A DNA stretch of 64,000 nucleotides from an uncultured Bacteroidales bacterium (GTDB taxonomy: Bacteria; Bacteroidota; Bacteroidia; Bacteroidales; UBA4417). The notes under the pieces are model-generated. The model did not search any database. It saw nothing but the letters and a program-made list of their open reading frames with translations, and was not told the DNA's origin. Numbering within the stretch: position 1 is the stretch's first letter; each line of letters opens with the position of its first letter. Made by a program: the position numbers and the translations under genes. Below, one piece after another: positions 6,268-13,189 of this stretch. The stretch is taken from assembly GCA_903879715.1 (NCBI GenBank), contig CAIRMR010000030.1, positions 1 to 64,000 of the forward strand, written 5' to 3'.

Positions 6268-7443
6268 CTAGACCCTCCCCACCTTCACCATCCTCTTCCG
6301 ATTTACCATCACTTTAGCTAAACATACGTAACGAACTGCGTCAATCCCATGATTGAATTTATCTATCGGTTCATTTGTTGCTTTTCCTGCCTGGTCCTCT
6401 TTCCACTTATAATTCTTAAACTCCCGGATCAGGTTTACCGAACCCTTGGTGATAAATACCTTATAACGTTTCATAATATCCAGACCGGCTAAAATACTAT
6501 CCTTTCCCTTGAACGTGGCAACCACATTAAAACCCTCTTTCTTAATCTCATAAATGCACTTCGGCTGGTTATCTGCGATAACCTCATCCGTCCATTTCAA
6601 ACCTAATTCACCCAGCCATTTTGCAATATCCTGATTAGTTAATCCCCGGTTGTAGATTAATTCATCAAGATAAAGATCGCCACCGCACAAACCCACCTTT
6701 ATTAATGCTGTCGGGTCATTACTGAAACCAAAATCCATCCCATACACAACCCACTTGCACTCATCCGGGAATGCTTCGCATTGGTCCCAATTCGTGAAGA
6801 TCAAGCCCTTAATTTGTCCTGGCAATCCAAGCCCATAAACCCGCCAGTAATTTTCATCAACATATTTCAGTTGCTCAATCTCTTTCACCACCTCCGCCGG
6901 TAGAAACTCTTTATTGTCTAAGTAAGTAGATTGAATAAACGTACAATCCGGCCGGGGAATCACAAGATCATAGATCCAATGTTCATCCATCGAGGGATTG
7001 TAGTCAATAAATATTTGCTTCTCTGTCCGGATCGACAACTGAATCCAGTCCTCCAGGCTCAATTCGTTCGCCTCATTAATAAAAAGATAGGTTCGCTTCG
7101 CTCCCCTCTTTTTCTGAGGCTGGTCCAGACTCACGAACTCAAACAGGTTCCCGTTCAGATGATAAGTATTCTCAGTCTTATTGTGGAATTTCTCATCATA
7201 CATTTCTGCATTCTTCAAAATTTCAAAGAAATCCCTCATTGCCGACGCTTTCAGCGACGGCATAGTTTTCCGGACAATGGTAAACACAGCCTCAGTTTCT
7301 TCAAACGCCTTCTTAATAATCAAAAGCTGAAGGATCGAATAAGTTTTACCTGACCTGCTGGAGCCCTGATTGACTACTATCTTGGTTGTAGCAGCTTCAT
7401 TCTTCTTAAATACTTTCGATACCCTGAACTCTAAATCTTTCAT
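6268..7443 (-). CDS. terL: phage terminase large subunit (PBSX/TerL type)
   Basis: The 391-residue protein is the motor-nuclease that packages DNA into phage heads. The ATPase half shows Walker A GSSRSGKT (residues 27-34) and Walker B TYLFINEANE (118-127), where Glu follows the hydrophobic strand. The nuclease half (RNase H fold) begins with YGMDFGFSNDPT, giving the first metal-binding Asp at D237, and ends with a conserved NHGIDAVRY, giving the last acidic ligand near residue 370. Length is close to the usual 400-430 of PBSX-type large terminases, so it looks intact. It lies 9 bases behind the small-subunit-like gene on the same strand, and divergent from the capsid genes. Confidence 0.93.
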   Translation of the reverse strand: MKDLEFRVSKVFKKNEAATTKIVVNQGSSRSGKTYSILQLLIIKKAFEETEAVFTIVRKTMPSLKASAMRDFFEILKNAEMYDEKFHNKTENTYHLNGNLFEFVSLDQPQKKRGAKRTYLFINEANELSLEDWIQLSIRTEKQIFIDYNPSMDEHWIYDLVIPRPDCTFIQSTYLDNKEFLPAEVVKEIEQLKYVDENYWRVYGLGLPGQIKGLIFTNWDQCEAFPDECKWVVYGMDFGFSNDPTALIKVGLCGGDLYLDELIYNRGLTNQDIAKWLGELGLKWTDEVIADNQPKCIYEIKKEGFNVVATFKGKDSILAGLDIMKRYKVFITKGSVNLIREFKNYKWKEDQAGKATNEPIDKFNHGIDAVRYVCLAKVMVNRKRMVKVGRV

Positions 7444-7452
7444 GCAGTAGCC

Positions 7453-7785
7453 TTATTTATTGCCTTCCTGATCAATCTGGGCAGCGTTATGCTCCGACTC
7501 CCCAACCACCACAAAGGTGATCTTCCTGATTTCTTTATCATCAGTCCCCACATCAAGATTAACTCGTTGCAGCTTTGGCCGGATATACTCCTGTAATTCT
7601 GCCCAGAGTTTTATTCTTTCCTGTGGTTTCATTTTTTTTAAGTCTTCCTCTGCAGTTTCATCCAGCAATTCCAGCACCCATTCAACCTTTGCCTGAATTT
7701 CCCGGGTAATTTTATTTTTAACACCCTTTGGCCTTCCATTGTTTCCTGCTTTGAATTGCCAATCTTTTGTCTTTTCAGTTTCCAT
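7453..7785 (-). CDS. terminase small subunit-like protein (DUF5681-like start)
   Basis: The 110-residue protein starts with KAGNNGRPKGVKNK (about residues 12-25), the Gly/Pro/Lys-rich opening typical of DUF5681 proteins found next to large terminases. A charged helix follows, then KPQERIKLWAELQEYIRPKLQRV, a pattern seen in small terminase subunits. It is directly upstream of terL with a 9-base gap, where the DNA-recognition subunit is expected. Assignment as the small subunit rests mostly on position. Confidence 0.7.
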   Translation of the reverse strand: METEKTKDWQFKAGNNGRPKGVKNKITREIQAKVEWVLELLDETAEEDLKKMKPQERIKLWAELQEYIRPKLQRVNLDVGTDDKEIRKITFVVVGESEHNAAQIDQEGNK

Positions 7786-7885: not shown

Positions 7886-8122
7886 TTACCTCCGGTAAAT
7901 CAGTTTCTCAATCGCACTCACCGATATTCCAAATTCGTCACTCAACTCATATTTAATATCCGTAAAAGTCTTTCCTGGTTTCTTCATTTGAAAGTATTTT
8001 TCTCTCACTAACCATTTTCTGGCTTGATCCAGTGTAAGTAAACCCATGTCAAATAATTTGCTTGCATCTACCCCGGCAAGATCTTTTATTTCTCTTAAAA
8101 TCAAGTCCCTGAATATCTCCAT
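7886..8122 (-). CDS. small helix-turn-helix-like protein of the packaging module
   Basis: The product (78 residues from ATG 8122) is helical and ends with a likely helix-turn-helix: ISVSAIEKLIYRR after KTFTDIKYELSDEFG, as in sigma-like or terminase small-subunit DNA-binding domains. An earlier GTG at 8146 would add eight residues, but a -7 promoter box on the minus strand (8146-8153) puts the transcript start near 8139, inside that extension, so I prefer 8122. It is the first gene of the minus-strand unit that includes both terminase genes, so it may be the true DNA-recognition subunit or a regulator. Confidence 0.6.
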   Translation of the reverse strand: MEIFRDLILREIKDLAGVDASKLFDMGLLTLDQARKWLVREKYFQMKKPGKTFTDIKYELSDEFGISVSAIEKLIYRR

Positions 8123-8145
8123 AGTTCTACTTGTTTTTGTTACCA

Positions 8146-8153
8146 CAAAGATA
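8146..8153 (-). promoter_or_regulatory. -7 promoter box of the terminase unit
   Basis: The minus strand reads TATCTTTG, matching the Bacteroidota consensus TAnnTTTG. The transcript would start near 8139 and run into the small DNA-binding protein and terminase genes. Confidence 0.55.
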
Positions 8154-8261: not shown

Positions 8262-8381
8262 ATGGCAAAAACTAATGTTAAAACCACAGGTTTACCAAAG
8301 GTAAAAACCTCGGCAAAAGCATCAACACCATATCAAAGAGCAAGAGGTGGAGGTGCTGACCTGGTAAAAAATGTAAAATAA
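8262..8381 (+). CDS. tiny lysine-rich protein 1 (39 aa) with GADLxKNVK tail
   Basis: The ATG at 8262 (CCATGG context) opens 39 codons. The product is very basic, with Lys/Thr/Ala-rich repeats and an RARGGGADLVKNVK end. Its last nine residues match those of the next tiny gene almost exactly, and similar tails occur in the fourth. It sits 26 bases behind a -7 box, first in a plus-strand unit that continues into the capsid genes. No family is known to me. A DNA-condensing or capsid-interacting peptide is possible. Sequence similarity among neighbours is the main evidence that these frames are real. Confidence 0.7.
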   Translation: MAKTNVKTTGLPKVKTSAKASTPYQRARGGGADLVKNVK

Positions 8382-8413
8382 TTCTTTAGTTCTAATTCTT
8401 AATTCTTTTCATC

Positions 8414-8527
8414 ATGGCAAAAGCAAAAGTAAAAACCAGCACAAAGATCAAAGCAAAATCCTCAACGAAAACCCCCAAAAAAGGAGTTGGCAAGGCTGGT
8501 GCTGATCTTGCAAAAAATGTAAAGTAA
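8414..8527 (+). CDS. tiny lysine-rich protein 2 (37 aa) with GADLAKNVK tail
   Basis: The frame from ATG 8414 codes 37 residues beginning MAKAKVKTST and ending GKAGADLAKNVK. About a third of the residues are Lys. It shares the MAK start and the C-terminal motif with the first tiny gene 32 bases upstream. Gene finders usually discard such short frames, but the shared ends and regular spacing argue for translation. Confidence 0.7.
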   Translation: MAKAKVKTSTKIKAKSSTKTPKKGVGKAGADLAKNVK

Positions 8528-8539
8528 GACTTCACGATT

Positions 8540-8653
8540 ATGGCTAAGCCGAAATCAAAAACTGCACTTAAAGCCAAACCGACATCAAAAACAGTTGTCG
8601 GCAAGCGTAAACCACGCAGGTCCAAAGGTGGTACTGTTAAATCCACTTCGTAA
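8540..8653 (+). CDS. tiny lysine-rich protein 3 (37 aa), no shared tail
   Basis: ATG 8540 opens 37 codons starting MAKPKSKTALKAKP, clearly related to tiny proteins 1 and 2 at the start. The C-terminus differs (KRKPRRSKGGTVKSTS) and lacks the GxxLxKxVK motif. It lies 12 bases behind the second tiny gene. Arg- and Lys-rich composition again suggests contact with nucleic acid. Confidence 0.65.
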   Translation: MAKPKSKTALKAKPTSKTVVGKRKPRRSKGGTVKSTS

Positions 8654-8676
8654 TTAACCTTTAATTTCTCCCTATC

Positions 8677-8814
8677 ATGACAACATTTTTTTCAAAGAAA
8701 GCTCCTAAAGCAGGCTCAGAGCTTCAAAAAAACGTTAAACGTTCCAATGCGCCGAAAAAGCCAAAAGCCGGTTCAAAGTATGGCGGCTCTGAACTTGCAA
8801 AAACTGTAAAGTAA
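8677..8814 (+). CDS. tiny lysine-rich protein 4 (45 aa) with two copies of the tail motif
   Basis: The frame from ATG 8677 codes 45 residues. It carries the motif twice: GSELQKNVK in the middle (residues 13-21) and GSELAKTVK at the very end. Its stop overlaps the start of the protease-scaffold gene (TAATG), so translation is probably coupled to that of the head genes. The internal repeat suggests the motif is a functional unit, such as a docking tail for capsid, scaffold or protease. Confidence 0.7.
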   Translation: MTTFFSKKAPKAGSELQKNVKRSNAPKKPKAGSKYGGSELAKTVK

Positions 8815-9992
8815 TGCACAGGTATTTCTCAACACCTCCAATCTTCTCAGCCCCTGTCACCAATATCGACAGGGAGCTTGGAATTATTCAGGGTGTGACC
8901 ATTGCCAGGGTTGGAATGGCTAAAGGTCATAACGGTTTTGTTGATCGTACTTTCCTCTTGCAGATTGTTGACAATGCTGCTTCCAAACCTGCCGGAATAA
9001 AGGCTCGGTTCGGACATCCGAATATGTGCAGTCAGGCTCTAGGAACATACCTTGGCCGTTTCAAAAATTATTCTTACTCCGGTGACCAGGTCAAAGCAGA
9101 CCTTCACCTGGATGAAACTTCAAAAAACACACCAAATGGGGATCTGTTTTCTTACGTCCTCGATATGGCTGGGAAAAACCCGGATATGTTTGGAGCTTCT
9201 ATTGTCTTTGAGATCGGAGAATCAGTATTCCTTGAAGAGGAGGTGGAAGGTGAAAAAGTTGAAAAGGAATACTTCCGGCTCAAAGAACTTAGGGCAACCG
9301 ACATTGTGGATGAACCGGCTGCAACGGATGGTTTGTTTTCAGCCAACACATTTCCGGGGATTGCAACCCAATTCCTTGATGAAAACCCTCAGATCATGGA
9401 CCTGATCTTTTCAAAACCTGATTCCGTCGTTGAATTTCTTTCTAACTATTTAAACAATTCCAAAATGAACTTATCCGAAAAAATTAAGGAAAACTTTGCC
9501 TCTTTCCTGGCTGCATTTACAACTCAGCCCGCTGAGCACTCAGCACAAAGCACTGAGCGCAGTCAAGAGCAGGACACCACTTTGAACACCCTTTTTGACG
9601 CCGTTTCTGCATCCTATCCTGAATCCTTTACCGAGGTTGAAGGCTTCACCCAACTTCAAAAAGCAGAGGCTTTAACGGCTTTCTTTTCGTCTGTGAACGA
9701 CAAACTACAATCTGCATCAGAAACAGAACATCGGTTGCAGAGCGAAGCCGAAGCTCTCAACGCCGATCACCAGGCGTTAATTGCATCTTCCGAAGTAACT
9801 ATTCAGGAACTGTCCACCGCTAACAGTCGTATCCAGGAACTGACGGAACAACTTGGTGCACGTCCTTCCATTCCTCTAAACGTCACTGATCCTGCCATAA
9901 GCCTTTCGGGGAACCAGGAAGTTGATGAAACCGGCAAACAAATACTTGCCGCCATGCCTAAAGACATGAAACGCAAGTTAAAACAATCTTAA
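8814..9992 (+). CDS. prohead protease-scaffold fusion protein
   Basis: The 392-residue protein combines an N-terminal protease-like domain (about residues 1-180) with a C-terminal scaffold. The first part contains ARFGHPNM (about 64-71), a typical His-bearing segment of phage head proteases, a core FGASIVFEI strand, and ELRATDIVDEPAATDGLF (about 158-175), close to the hallmark end of prohead proteases. The second part (about 215-392) is acidic, Gln/Ser-rich and probably coiled coil (LQSEAEALNADHQAL, ELTEQLG), ending in a basic KDMKRKLKQS tail that would bind capsid protein. It follows the fourth tiny gene by a TAATG overlap and precedes the capsid gene. An ATG at 9465 (residue 218) could start scaffold alone. 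Confidence 0.85.
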   Translation: MHRYFSTPPIFSAPVTNIDRELGIIQGVTIARVGMAKGHNGFVDRTFLLQIVDNAASKPAGIKARFGHPNMCSQALGTYLGRFKNYSYSGDQVKADLHLDETSKNTPNGDLFSYVLDMAGKNPDMFGASIVFEIGESVFLEEEVEGEKVEKEYFRLKELRATDIVDEPAATDGLFSANTFPGIATQFLDENPQIMDLIFSKPDSVVEFLSNYLNNSKMNLSEKIKENFASFLAAFTTQPAEHSAQSTERSQEQDTTLNTLFDAVSASYPESFTEVEGFTQLQKAEALTAFFSSVNDKLQSASETEHRLQSEAEALNADHQALIASSEVTIQELSTANSRIQELTEQLGARPSIPLNVTDPAISLSGNQEVDETGKQILAAMPKDMKRKLKQS

Positions 9993-10063: not shown

Positions 10064-11413
10064 ATGTCAAATATTTTTTCACAATCCACTTCTCCCGCTT
10101 TCAAACGCCAGGCTATTGATGAATTCTTCATTCAGCCTATGTTTATGGCTGAGGACATTCGCGGTCTCATTACCGTGCGAACCGATATCAAAGGGACCGA
10201 AACATTGAATCGTATCGGTCGTCCTTCCATGTTAACTAAACCTAAAACAACTCCGGGCTTTACGCCTGCAGGTGGTTTTAATCTCACCTACACCGACATC
10301 ACAGTTAAACCTATGGCGTTGGAGTTCGAGCAGAACGCACGCTCTTTCTGGGGTTCAATCGTTGAGCAATTGCTTGCTTCCGGTTATAAGGAAGATGATG
10401 TTGAACAAATGAAATCGCCTGATGTATGGAACAAGGTCATGCTTCCTTTAATCGCTCAGGCTGGTCAGGATGACCTTATCCGTCAGATGTTTTTTGCAAA
10501 TCCAGCCGCTGAATACTTTGTCAATGGCATTCCTACCGGAAGTCCCGACGACAATTACACAGGTTACACAGGTTTTATATCCTGGCTTCAGAAAGATTTG
10601 CTTTCAGGTATAATCAACTCTGCTCAGCATGTTCCTGTTGCTTCTTCGATAGTTGCAAAAAAACAGGAAGTTGTACAAACCTATACAAAAGGCACTGATA
10701 CAGCTATTACCATTACAATTAATGGCATGGCTTATACACAGGCATACGACACTTCTGCAGCCGTCACCATCACAAATTGGCTCAATGCTCACAAGGCAAC
10801 TATTGAAGCCCGTGCAGGTATCAATGGCGTTATCGTTACCAATCCTTCTGCAGGTGCAATCAAAGTAGTCAGCAAAGCCAAAGGTCAGAGTTTTGATTGT
10901 ACGGTTGCCGTTACCGGTACAGGTACTTTCGCAGCTACTGGAGTTGTAGCAGCAGTTAAAGCCGGTTCTCTGTCTGACAACGAAGCCGATGCCACCCTGG
11001 AGGATATGATCGATGCTGTTACACCTGAAATGCACGAATATGACCTCATGTTCATGCTTACTTCTTCGATGTGGCGTAACCTCGTTCACACTCTTAAAGA
11101 CCGTCAGACAGTCATGGGTGATGCCATCCTGAAAAACGGTTTGAAAGTTCCTACCTATGAAGGTTTCCCAATTATCGTTCGTCCTGATTGGGACAAATGG
11201 ATTAATGTTGCACAGGCTGGTGTTCAACCGCACCGCGCTTTGCTCACCACATCCAAAAACCTTCTTTTTGCTACTGATGGAACCAGCGATTCAGAAATGA
11301 TTGAGACGTGGTACAACCAGGAAGCCCAGATGCGCCGGTATCGTGTACAGTACAAAGCACAAACAGCATACCTCCACAAAGAGCTTGTCGTTCTGGCTGG
11401 ATTCATTGACTAA
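10064..11413 (+). CDS. phage major capsid protein with an inserted domain
   Basis: The 449-residue protein is placed as the capsid by its position between protease-scaffold and portal and by sequence: an early segment with FFIQPMFMAEDIRGL (about residues 21-35), DVWNKVMLPLIAQAGQDDLIRQMFFAN (about 120-145) and a C-terminal half with LMFMLTSSMWRNLVHTL and WYNQEAQMRRYRVQYKAQTAYLHKELVVLAG, typical of capsid shells. Residues about 199-305 have a different character (Thr/Ala/Val-rich beta pattern, TDTAITITINGMAY), and look like an inserted surface domain. Length without it would be about 340, a normal size. It is transcribed with its neighbours. A fold prediction would confirm the HK97-type fold. 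Confidence 0.85.
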   Translation: MSNIFSQSTSPAFKRQAIDEFFIQPMFMAEDIRGLITVRTDIKGTETLNRIGRPSMLTKPKTTPGFTPAGGFNLTYTDITVKPMALEFEQNARSFWGSIVEQLLASGYKEDDVEQMKSPDVWNKVMLPLIAQAGQDDLIRQMFFANPAAEYFVNGIPTGSPDDNYTGYTGFISWLQKDLLSGIINSAQHVPVASSIVAKKQEVVQTYTKGTDTAITITINGMAYTQAYDTSAAVTITNWLNAHKATIEARAGINGVIVTNPSAGAIKVVSKAKGQSFDCTVAVTGTGTFAATGVVAAVKAGSLSDNEADATLEDMIDAVTPEMHEYDLMFMLTSSMWRNLVHTLKDRQTVMGDAILKNGLKVPTYEGFPIIVRPDWDKWINVAQAGVQPHRALLTTSKNLLFATDGTSDSEMIETWYNQEAQMRRYRVQYKAQTAYLHKELVVLAGFID

Positions 11414-11504: not shown

Positions 11505-12758
11505 GTGAAAGCCTTCTCCACTTACAATTACGTCCCGCTTTTAAATCTCAAACGTTCTGATTTTATAAATCTCCGCACGAACTATGATATTTTTATCCCT
11601 TTTGGAGAAGACAACTTACTGCCTACCCAGCTCAACCAATTAGCCAGGGAAGTCCCTGTTCACCGTGCTATCCTTAATTCAAAAGCCTCTTATATTATTG
11701 GAAGAGGCTTTTTAACCAATAATAAGCTAATTCAGCAAATCGTTTCCACCCCGAATAATACATTCGAAGACCTCAATTCTATCTTTCGGTATGTCGTTCA
11801 TGATTACCTGAACATTGGAAATTCGTATATCGAAATCATAACCAATCCTAAAAAGTCCTTCATGTACTTGTATCATATCGATTCAAGTAAATGCCGGTTA
11901 TCTGCCATTGAAAATGATGTATTAATACATCCTTCATGGGAAGATTTTAAAGGTAAGAATGACGAAAATCTCACTTCACTTCCTTTATTCCCTGATTTCA
12001 GGAAAGGTCCTGATGGATTATTACACTCAGTTTATCATATCAAAGACTATGAACCTGAGTTCTATTACTATGGGCTGTGTTCATACTTTGCCGGTCTACG
12101 GTCTATTATAGTTTCAGGTCTTACAAATCTTTGGAATCAAAAACGCCTTGAAAATGGGTTCACAGCTCCTGGCTTGCTTATCGTTCCAGGAATAAATGAT
12201 GAAGATGATGCCACTGCCCTTGATGAAGAATTTAATAAATTCAAAGGCGTTGATGGTGAAAAGTCCGGTGATATTATCATTCAATATCTTGCTGATTTAT
12301 CTCCGGGCCAAACTTCACAGCAGGCAAAATTTATTGAGTTCAAAAAGAACGAAGAAGGTAATTGGATGGATCTTCACACACAGTCTGAATTGTCAATTAT
12401 CACAATTCATAATTGGTTTCGCTCTCTTACACCTTATTCAGGCGAAAAAACAGGCTTTGATTCAAACCGTATTGTCAACGAGTATGAAATTGCTCTCAAC
12501 ACAATTATAAGCCCGCTGCAAACATTCTTTTTGCGTCACTTAGATCAGCTCTTCAAGTATTTTTCTTTGCCTGTCGGACAACTATCATTTATAAATGAGC
12601 CGCCTATACAGCGGATTAATCCTTTGAAATTCGTTTGGGAAGCCCGGCAAGATGCTGGCCTTTCTTTTGATCCTAATGATCCGGTGCAAAAATTGCTGAT
12701 TATGCAACTGAAAAACACCTTCAATTCAGCAACACCTGACACAGGTTCCACAATCTAA
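11505..12758 (+). CDS. phage portal protein
   Basis: The 417-residue protein (GTG start at 11505) forms the dodecameric portal through which DNA enters the head. It has the usual portal order: an N-terminal region with IPFGEDNLLPTQLNQLAREVPVHRAILNSKASYI (about residues 31-64), a clamp region with DYLNIGNSYIEII (about 100-112), a stem with GLTNLWNQKRLENGFTAPGLL (about 206-226), and a C-terminal helical region (IVNEYEIALNTIISPLQTFFLRHLDQLF, about 325-352). Length matches HK97-type portals. It follows the capsid gene rather than preceding the protease, an order less usual than portal-protease-capsid. Confidence 0.88.
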   Translation: MKAFSTYNYVPLLNLKRSDFINLRTNYDIFIPFGEDNLLPTQLNQLAREVPVHRAILNSKASYIIGRGFLTNNKLIQQIVSTPNNTFEDLNSIFRYVVHDYLNIGNSYIEIITNPKKSFMYLYHIDSSKCRLSAIENDVLIHPSWEDFKGKNDENLTSLPLFPDFRKGPDGLLHSVYHIKDYEPEFYYYGLCSYFAGLRSIIVSGLTNLWNQKRLENGFTAPGLLIVPGINDEDDATALDEEFNKFKGVDGEKSGDIIIQYLADLSPGQTSQQAKFIEFKKNEEGNWMDLHTQSELSIITIHNWFRSLTPYSGEKTGFDSNRIVNEYEIALNTIISPLQTFFLRHLDQLFKYFSLPVGQLSFINEPPIQRINPLKFVWEARQDAGLSFDPNDPVQKLLIMQLKNTFNSATPDTGSTI

Positions 12759-12769
12759 TTCTGATCTAT

Positions 12770-13189
12770 ATGCCACTTATTACAGCCACAGAGATAAACA
12801 TAATAGCATTCTCCACTCCAATCGATCCGGCTTTGATATTGGATGAAATCATTAATGCCGCCGAAAATAAATTCATTATTCCGGCCATCACTAAACCCGT
12901 ATATGATGACCTTTCTGTTCATCCTGGCATTTATACAACCCTTATTGCCGATTATATAAAGCCTTACCTTGCATATTGCGTCAAGTTTCTATTGTACAGC
13001 CAATATCTAAATGAATCTTCGGCGGATGCAACCATCCTCCAACAAAGAGGCGAAACAGTAAATGAGAGCAACACAATCTCTCAGGTAAAAAGAACCTTGC
13101 TCATAAATCATCTGTTATCTGGCATTTATCCGCAATATGTTTCCCCTGTCAAAAAGCGAATCACAGGCTTTTTAATCAATAAAAAGTAA
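12770..13189 (+). CDS. head-tail connector-like / head completion protein
   Basis: The 139-residue helical protein begins MPLITATEINIIAFSTPIDPALILDEII and continues with an IPAITKPVYDDL segment, resembling small helical adaptor proteins that follow the portal gene in phages of this phylum. It sits 11 bases behind the portal gene and is the last gene before the tRNA-Asn, with no tail genes after it. Its role as an adaptor rests on size, fold pattern and position. Confidence 0.65.
   Translation: MPLITATEINIIAFSTPIDPALILDEIINAAENKFIIPAITKPVYDDLSVHPGIYTTLIADYIKPYLAYCVKFLLYSQYLNESSADATILQQRGETVNESNTISQVKRTLLINHLLSGIYPQYVSPVKKRITGFLINKK

Follow-up and report, generated by a model that had tools for sequence, protein, structure and literature searches.

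Why does a phage keep four very short, lysine-rich genes directly upstream of its head genes, and what might the tail common to three of their products recognize? The locus lies in the window, i.e., the whole 64,000-nucleotide stretch of DNA analyzed, which is the start of contig C30 in a 6.07 Mb draft genome (G000, the own genome) of an uncultured Bacteroidales bacterium. The initial annotation had described four lysine-rich frames of 39, 37, 37 and 45 codons, tails in proteins 1, 2 and 4 with an inner copy in protein 4, and a last stop overlapping the start of the protease-scaffold gene. All of these were found as described, protein 3 being tail-less.

8262..8381, + strand: micro-protein gene 1 (39 aa), tail GADLVKNVK at 8352-8378; from the ORF reading and a G003 ortholog, dN/dS 0.06
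8414..8527, + strand: micro-protein gene 2 (37 aa), tail GADLAKNVK at 8498-8524; dN/dS 0.21
8540..8653, + strand: micro-protein gene 3 (37 aa), lysine-rich and tail-less, as is its G003 counterpart; dN/dS 0.18
8677..8814, + strand: micro-protein gene 4 (45 aa), tail GSELAKTVK at 8785-8811, inner GSELQKNVK at 8713-8739; dN/dS 0.28

The stop of gene 4 and the protease-scaffold start overlap in the sequence TAATG (8812-8816). Lysine makes up 32%, 27% and 24% of proteins 2, 3 and 4, respectively, and, counted by eye, 7 of the 39 residues of protein 1. An upstream ATG at 8046 would extend gene 1 to 111 aa; G003 retains the MAK start instead. MAK is also the only conserved N-terminal element in the micro-protein alignment (the T4 targeting sequence lies outside this alignment). 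The genes on either side are as follows.

8814..9992, + strand: prohead protease with a helical, coiled-coil-like scaffold part fused to it; the protease model is similar to T4 gp21
10064..11413, + strand: major capsid protein (MCP), HK97-like with moderate scores and carrying a domain inserted at about 199-296; family and model match
11505..12758, + strand: portal protein; Pfam match below cut-off plus a further family match
12770..13189, + strand: putative head-completion protein, by position only, with no family match
7886..8146, - strand: small divergently transcribed protein, HTH-like by eye, with no family match
7453..7785, - strand: putative terminase small subunit, by position; PHROGs of unknown function
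6268..7443, - strand: terminase large subunit (TerL); family matches

The protease model aligned to T4 gp21 (5jbl; VIA Z 12.5, rmsd 3.3, 146 aligned), a fold-level resemblance only, with the herpesvirus proteases as the next-best family at Z 5.9. For the MCP model (mean pLDDT 68.7), the best whole-domain matches included encapsulins (Z 10.5, 189 aligned) and T5-type capsids (Z 9.2). Its inserted domain aligned to tail-sheath domains (8kee; Z 11.0, rmsd 2.0, 89 aligned).

We then analyzed codon substitutions in the short frames. In the pool, which comprised 10 of the 13 computed pairs, pS was 0.54 vs. a pN of 0.14, i.e., the pattern of coding constraint and not that of untranslated frames, and single-pair dN/dS was 0.06-0.28 where computable. 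Gene 3 was constrained despite its absent tail. The micro-proteins are a real family under protein-level selection and are apparently translated.

Relatives with a conserved tail beside head genes, which the initial annotation had suggested looking for, were found in other genomes. The protease was present in 5 of 198 relative genomes searched, own included, with four copies in the own genome, and each of the ten copies, once correctly oriented, was preceded by lysine-rich frames, numbering four in the window and in G003, two at each G002 copy, and one at every remaining copy. The gap between micro-protein and protease ranged from none to ~250 bases (largest in G002:C15). Most frames ended in the tail, the exceptions being gene 3 of the window, gene 3 of G003, and two G186 copies. 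Protease scans of viral contigs (66 loci) and genome contigs (40 loci) gave 105 loci for examination after L052, whose match begins inside the protein, was dropped. In 21 of these 105, a micro-protein gene lay just upstream of the protease-scaffold gene, 16 being recognized by the tail pattern, two (L100, L103) by eye, and three (L091, L092, L097) as G003 and G002 contigs. A six-frame search of 102 loci with the tail pattern recovered 18 ORFs, of which 17 were immediately upstream of the protease gene and one was elsewhere. Because the same arrangement recurs in related loci, the frames are beyond chance.

The suspicion that the family might be undescribed gained support, since none of the 25 micro-proteins had a credible match in Pfam, PHROGs or NCBIfam (best E 0.22, 0.06 and 0.074, each for one member), and no comparable protein appeared in the open literature among the matches listed. 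Three matches of the micro-protein profile A6 (see below) to a Golgi protein among solved structures (E 0.5-0.6) were taken as chance. In 50,697 records of isolated phages the protease had no match and the MCP one weak match, while an MCP scan of viral contigs gave 16 loci, ten at ≥54% identity, all on records that the protease scans had already recovered, and six at 20-28%. The carriers belong to a little-known group of small phages. L167 (G789), L164/L165 (G785) and L168 (G000:C121) are compact elements with head genes, though these records may be fragments; no obvious tail tube or tape measure gene was apparent among 13 proteins scanned in such possibly fragmentary elements. The G789 record (L167) also has fibre-like genes and a phage lysozyme, and integrases were present in three of six phage records, G785 and G789 among them.

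We next consider what the tail resembles. Profile A6 was built from the 25 phage micro-proteins, phage sequences only, with window genes 1 and 2 among its rows. It gave seven matches in the own genome: micro-protein genes of the window (three of them) and of C52, a pair of DUF6266 proteins, and the histone-like protein HU. Gene 1, itself a row of the profile, was the top match (E 5.8e-11), and the C121 and C78 micro-protein copies were not among the seven. In 11 further genomes, A6 matched phage genes, HU in 10 of the 11 (all but G794), and one sequence in G002:C496. The matched protein of the own genome is HU by Pfam (PF00216, E 2.3e-33) and by alignment to PDB 1hue over residues 1-89; its gene lies on contig C86 among genes that look chromosomal, judging their names by eye. 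It is one of three HU-like genes in this genome and ends FKPGADLVKTVK. The phage tail corresponds to residues 82-90 of the 90-residue MNKAELI-type HU, a segment that we take to be helix alpha-3. The micro-proteins are thus like bacterial HU in their last 9-12 residues ([F/Y]K[P/A]GxxLxxxV in most), in their basic composition, and at host-matched variable sites. They are unlike HU in being 37-51 aa long, in containing no Pfam HU domain (PF00216 in 0/25 at E 0.5), and in having no DNA-binding arm signature by eye.

The resemblance varied with the host. The best HU/phage tail pairs were GSELVGTVK/GSELVGTVK in G795, GNDLATKVK/GNDLATKVK in G797, GSELADAVQ/GSELADAIQ in G793, GAELAGAV/GADLAGAV in G172, and GTELEKATR/GTNLEKVTR in G002. 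Identity was exact (9/9) in three hosts, for the C52 copy (G000), L106 and L111 (G795), and L123 (G797), and even the last residue tracked the host, being absent in G172, Q in G793, and R in the second G002 gene. Matches to the own HU were weak in G791 (4/9), G002 (mean 4.5) and G796 (6), each tied with another host, and poor in G186 (L100 and L103, 3/9 only). Tails of paralogous HU proteins fit less well in G000, G172 and G793, but not so in G186. One further copy, L099 (JAOZLT010000055), is in a Gracilibacteria bin (G794) with an HU ending FKAGKSLKDAVR; it is possibly mis-binned, and G794 is probably not its actual host.

To put numbers on this tracking, we used hosts that are draft bins, leaving G186 (no alignable tail), G794 (doubtful host), and the tail-less C30_3 and G003_3 for a second, 12-host test that included them all. 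The own HU was the best match in all ten alignable hosts (seven strictly, with ties in G791, G796 and G002). Identities were 68.8 vs. 43.5 under permutation (p 1e-5, the floor of the test), a statistic in which phage-host co-divergence remains. With one species per genus, exact p was 2.5e-5 to 5e-5, and with 12 hosts, every copy, free alignment, and the tail-less gene 3 included, p was 5e-5, again the test floor. By position, own/other match frequencies were 0.81/0.19 at 83, 0.72/0.50 at 84, 0.59/0.22 at 86, 0.82/0.11 at 87, 0.60/0.16 at 88, 0.70/0.64 at 89, and 0.82/0.44 at 90, and they were equal at 82 and 85; the signal therefore sits at 83, 86, 87, 88 and 90, and less at 84. Within genus g1 the tracking was not species-precise: G000 copies averaged 6.67/9 to their own HU and 6.33 to that of G003, and the C30_2 tail is the HU tail of G005. 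As judged from these alignments, the tail follows the lineage of the host at host-variable residues, which points to an unrecognized phage-host contact, and the agreement at these residues suggests recognition by something that also sees the tail of HU. We therefore tentatively favor, at a shade under an even chance, the reading that the head-operon micro-proteins may be HU-tail mimics, in which a lysine-rich arm is joined to a copy of the end of the host HU and would engage either HU-DNA or an HU partner.

The initial annotation had interpreted the motif as a tail for docking to, or processing by, capsid, scaffold or protease. A conserved tail beside the head genes is indeed present; the proposed link to those three proteins gained no support, as no copy of the tail recurred in them across gene-bearing loci in the scoring below and the tail matches host HU. 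A fuller version of this idea is that the micro-proteins are packaged internal head proteins, as in T4, whose C-terminal tail engages capsid, scaffold or protease to bring them into the prohead, where the arms bind DNA. It draws on the head-operon position and the gp21-like protease model, and the T4 internal proteins IPI-III are the nearest analogue for this context: they too are small and basic, with diverse, variable bodies, one common short capsid targeting sequence, and a gp21-like protease (PMC3012670, PMC9026906). Yet the T4 tag is N-terminal and cleaved, according to the same sources, whereas the micro-protein tail is C-terminal and matches a host protein. Encapsulin targeting peptides, described as short tails such as GGDLGIRK that dock inside the shell (PMC8229669, PMC10960027), look similar as well; this is a likeness of form only, which leaves host tracking unexplained, as would any docking site internal to the phage.

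Candidate docking partners were scored with a tail matrix. The scaffold C terminus was rejected as the source of the tail, scoring below zero in all 35 loci scored, and a KGTE motif in the MCP N-arm was not significant, its score of 6.9 being reached by 2-6 of 50 shuffles among the best 14 rows per protein. Likewise among the best 14 rows per protein, no tail-like stretch in MCP or protease recurred across gene-bearing loci. Single protease stretches near residue 51 did score above most shuffles, including in the gene-less clade (L127 15.1, L112 11.6, L123 10.2, and others), and an MCP stretch near 344 did so in L123 and L127 (12.1), with no recurrence in other gene-bearing loci.

The phylogeny of the carriers also bears on this alternative. 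On a capsid tree of 45 proteins, 19 with the micro-protein gene and 26 without, the presence label requires three changes; within one capsid clade the gene looks ancestral, with one gain and two losses as the simplest reading, and one clade of 22 is without the gene. Sites that are conserved but fixed differently in the gene-less clade numbered 12/93 in the protease, 11/213 in the MCP, 3/107 in the portal and 1/79 in TerL, in a comparison that covers one loss event, excludes L127 and L033, and for TerL involves 15 and 8 sequences. The protease has the largest share, which speaks for this alternative, but the shift reflects that single loss. Within the 22-member clade, for instance at L029, L101 and L112, the protease has KSY for KGH, there is no micro-protein gene, and the scaffolds are often shorter; the histidine concerned, H39, was rejected as a catalytic residue, not being conserved in the wider family, where H68 and S129 are. 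Considering both sides, we regard packaging as internal head proteins as an unlikely explanation.

Returning to HU-tail mimicry, the same likeness might have come about passively, through repeated capture of the 3′ end of the host HU gene followed by silent drift, with the tail kept by HU-like folding or DNA contact and no need to match the host. HU likeness does extend just before the tail in some micro-proteins (VVKFKAG in L026, IIKFKPG in L123), C30_1 and the G000 HU have 24/27 bases in common, tracking is at genus level, and position 81 agrees between phage and HU in five of eight hosts compared. However, the residue there (P, A or S) is not that of HU in G795, in G797 or in three of the four G002 copies, despite the tail match. 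Moreover, in 11 pairs of phage tail and HU the codon was changed at 2-7 of the 6-9 identical residues; the eight pairs with 8-9/9 identical residues had 2-7 changed codons (4-7 in seven of them), while HU tails themselves change within a genus. Since the codons differ at 2-7 shared residues, a recent DNA copy is unlikely; an old capture of HU tail DNA could still lie behind the likeness. We also discarded recent gene conversion involving HU and the mobile tails: when 14 HU genes were compared with 21 tails, no pair agreed at all 27 bases (best 24/27). Overall, passive ancestry seems to us rather unlikely.

The tail is also the fast-changing part of HU. The HU proteins of G000, G009 and G003 coincide at residues 1-82, their only differences being at 86 and 88, and the ratio of per-site differences at 83-90 to those at 1-82 was 3.9 in 14 species of the host genus vs. 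1.9 in 28 sequences of a control genus. In six chosen pairs, pN/pS was 0.15 for the tail and 0.02 for the body. Silent changes, too, were denser in the tail (0.67 vs. 0.32), and the excess is therefore no demonstration of positive selection. In nine genomes searched as hosts of the gene-less clade, seven of the eight HU genes read had a GAELxKKVK tail and one had GTELTGKVK.

A second carrier of the tail was found in DUF6266 proteins, present in 6 of 16 genomes of the host genus. The 13 DUF6266 rows comprised nine close copies, three distant ones (24-26% identity, the match stopping before the tail) and one N-terminal fragment, and all nine close copies read end in FKAG[AC][DE]LxK[NS]VK. Their tails fit the genus and not the species: in G014, HU has GTELSKAVK vs. 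GADLAKNVK and GCELAKNVK in DUF6266. One DUF6266 gene adjoins three genes that the window's element also has and a gene 24-26% identical to integrase-sized C121 ORFs. DUF6266 proteins with an HU-like tail lie in mobile regions of the host genus, at L309:8147-8818, L310:10747-11190 and L297-L304.

That an unrelated protein has the same tail would suit another explanation, namely a C-terminal degradation or processing tag shared by HU and the phage proteins and read by a host factor such as a protease. The motif is at the extreme C terminus and its last residue often follows the host, in keeping with such a tag. Against it, the motif also has inner copies, in gene 4 of the window, gene 4 of G003, and L027, and we know of no such factor; a shared tag appears very improbable.

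HU-tail mimicry, if it is correct, could operate as follows. Each micro-protein would consist of a lysine-rich arm and then a copy of HU residues 82-90, and this tail would be read by whatever reads the end of HU: either HU itself, through tail-to-tail or tail-to-body contacts within HU-DNA complexes, or a host protein that partners HU. The tail would thereby bring the arm to HU-coated DNA, or displace HU, late in infection during head building and DNA packaging. Additional copies whose tails differ, like those of the window, might let one phage deal with several HU variants within a host genus. From the host-matched residues, we hold with moderate confidence that the target would be HU or its partner on DNA, and DNA binding by the lysine-rich arm is plausible. 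More broadly, Bacteroidales phages might mimic the HU C terminus host by host, with HU tails diversifying between sister species around a fixed body, phage and DUF6266 tails matching them, and tandem copies serving as a repertoire for several hosts; this wider account is possible, though we lean against it.

There is precedent for phage attack on HU in SPO1 Gp46, a phage-encoded inhibitor of HU (PMC10753183). Like the proposed action of the micro-proteins, it is aimed at HU; unlike them, it is reported to act at the DNA-binding site of HU and to have no similarity to proteins of described function, whereas the micro-proteins have HU's own tail.

If mimicry holds, the HU C-terminal end, for which we know of no partner, would be a surface that phages copy host by host and a recognition site in phage-host conflict. 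The tail would then predict the host, giving a nine-residue marker that links uncultured phages to their hosts, and would hint at how a compact phage handles host chromatin during packaging. A gene family of 37-51 aa absent from three protein-family libraries can evidently be both selected and informative.

Two further observations concern the micro-protein genes. At L127:4290-4390, short tandem repeats occupy the place of the gene, and by eye the first codons look like a remnant. A second motif type, GIYGIN/GVFGIN, is seen in the micro-proteins of L100, L103 and L099, and also in L027, L028, L106 and L111.
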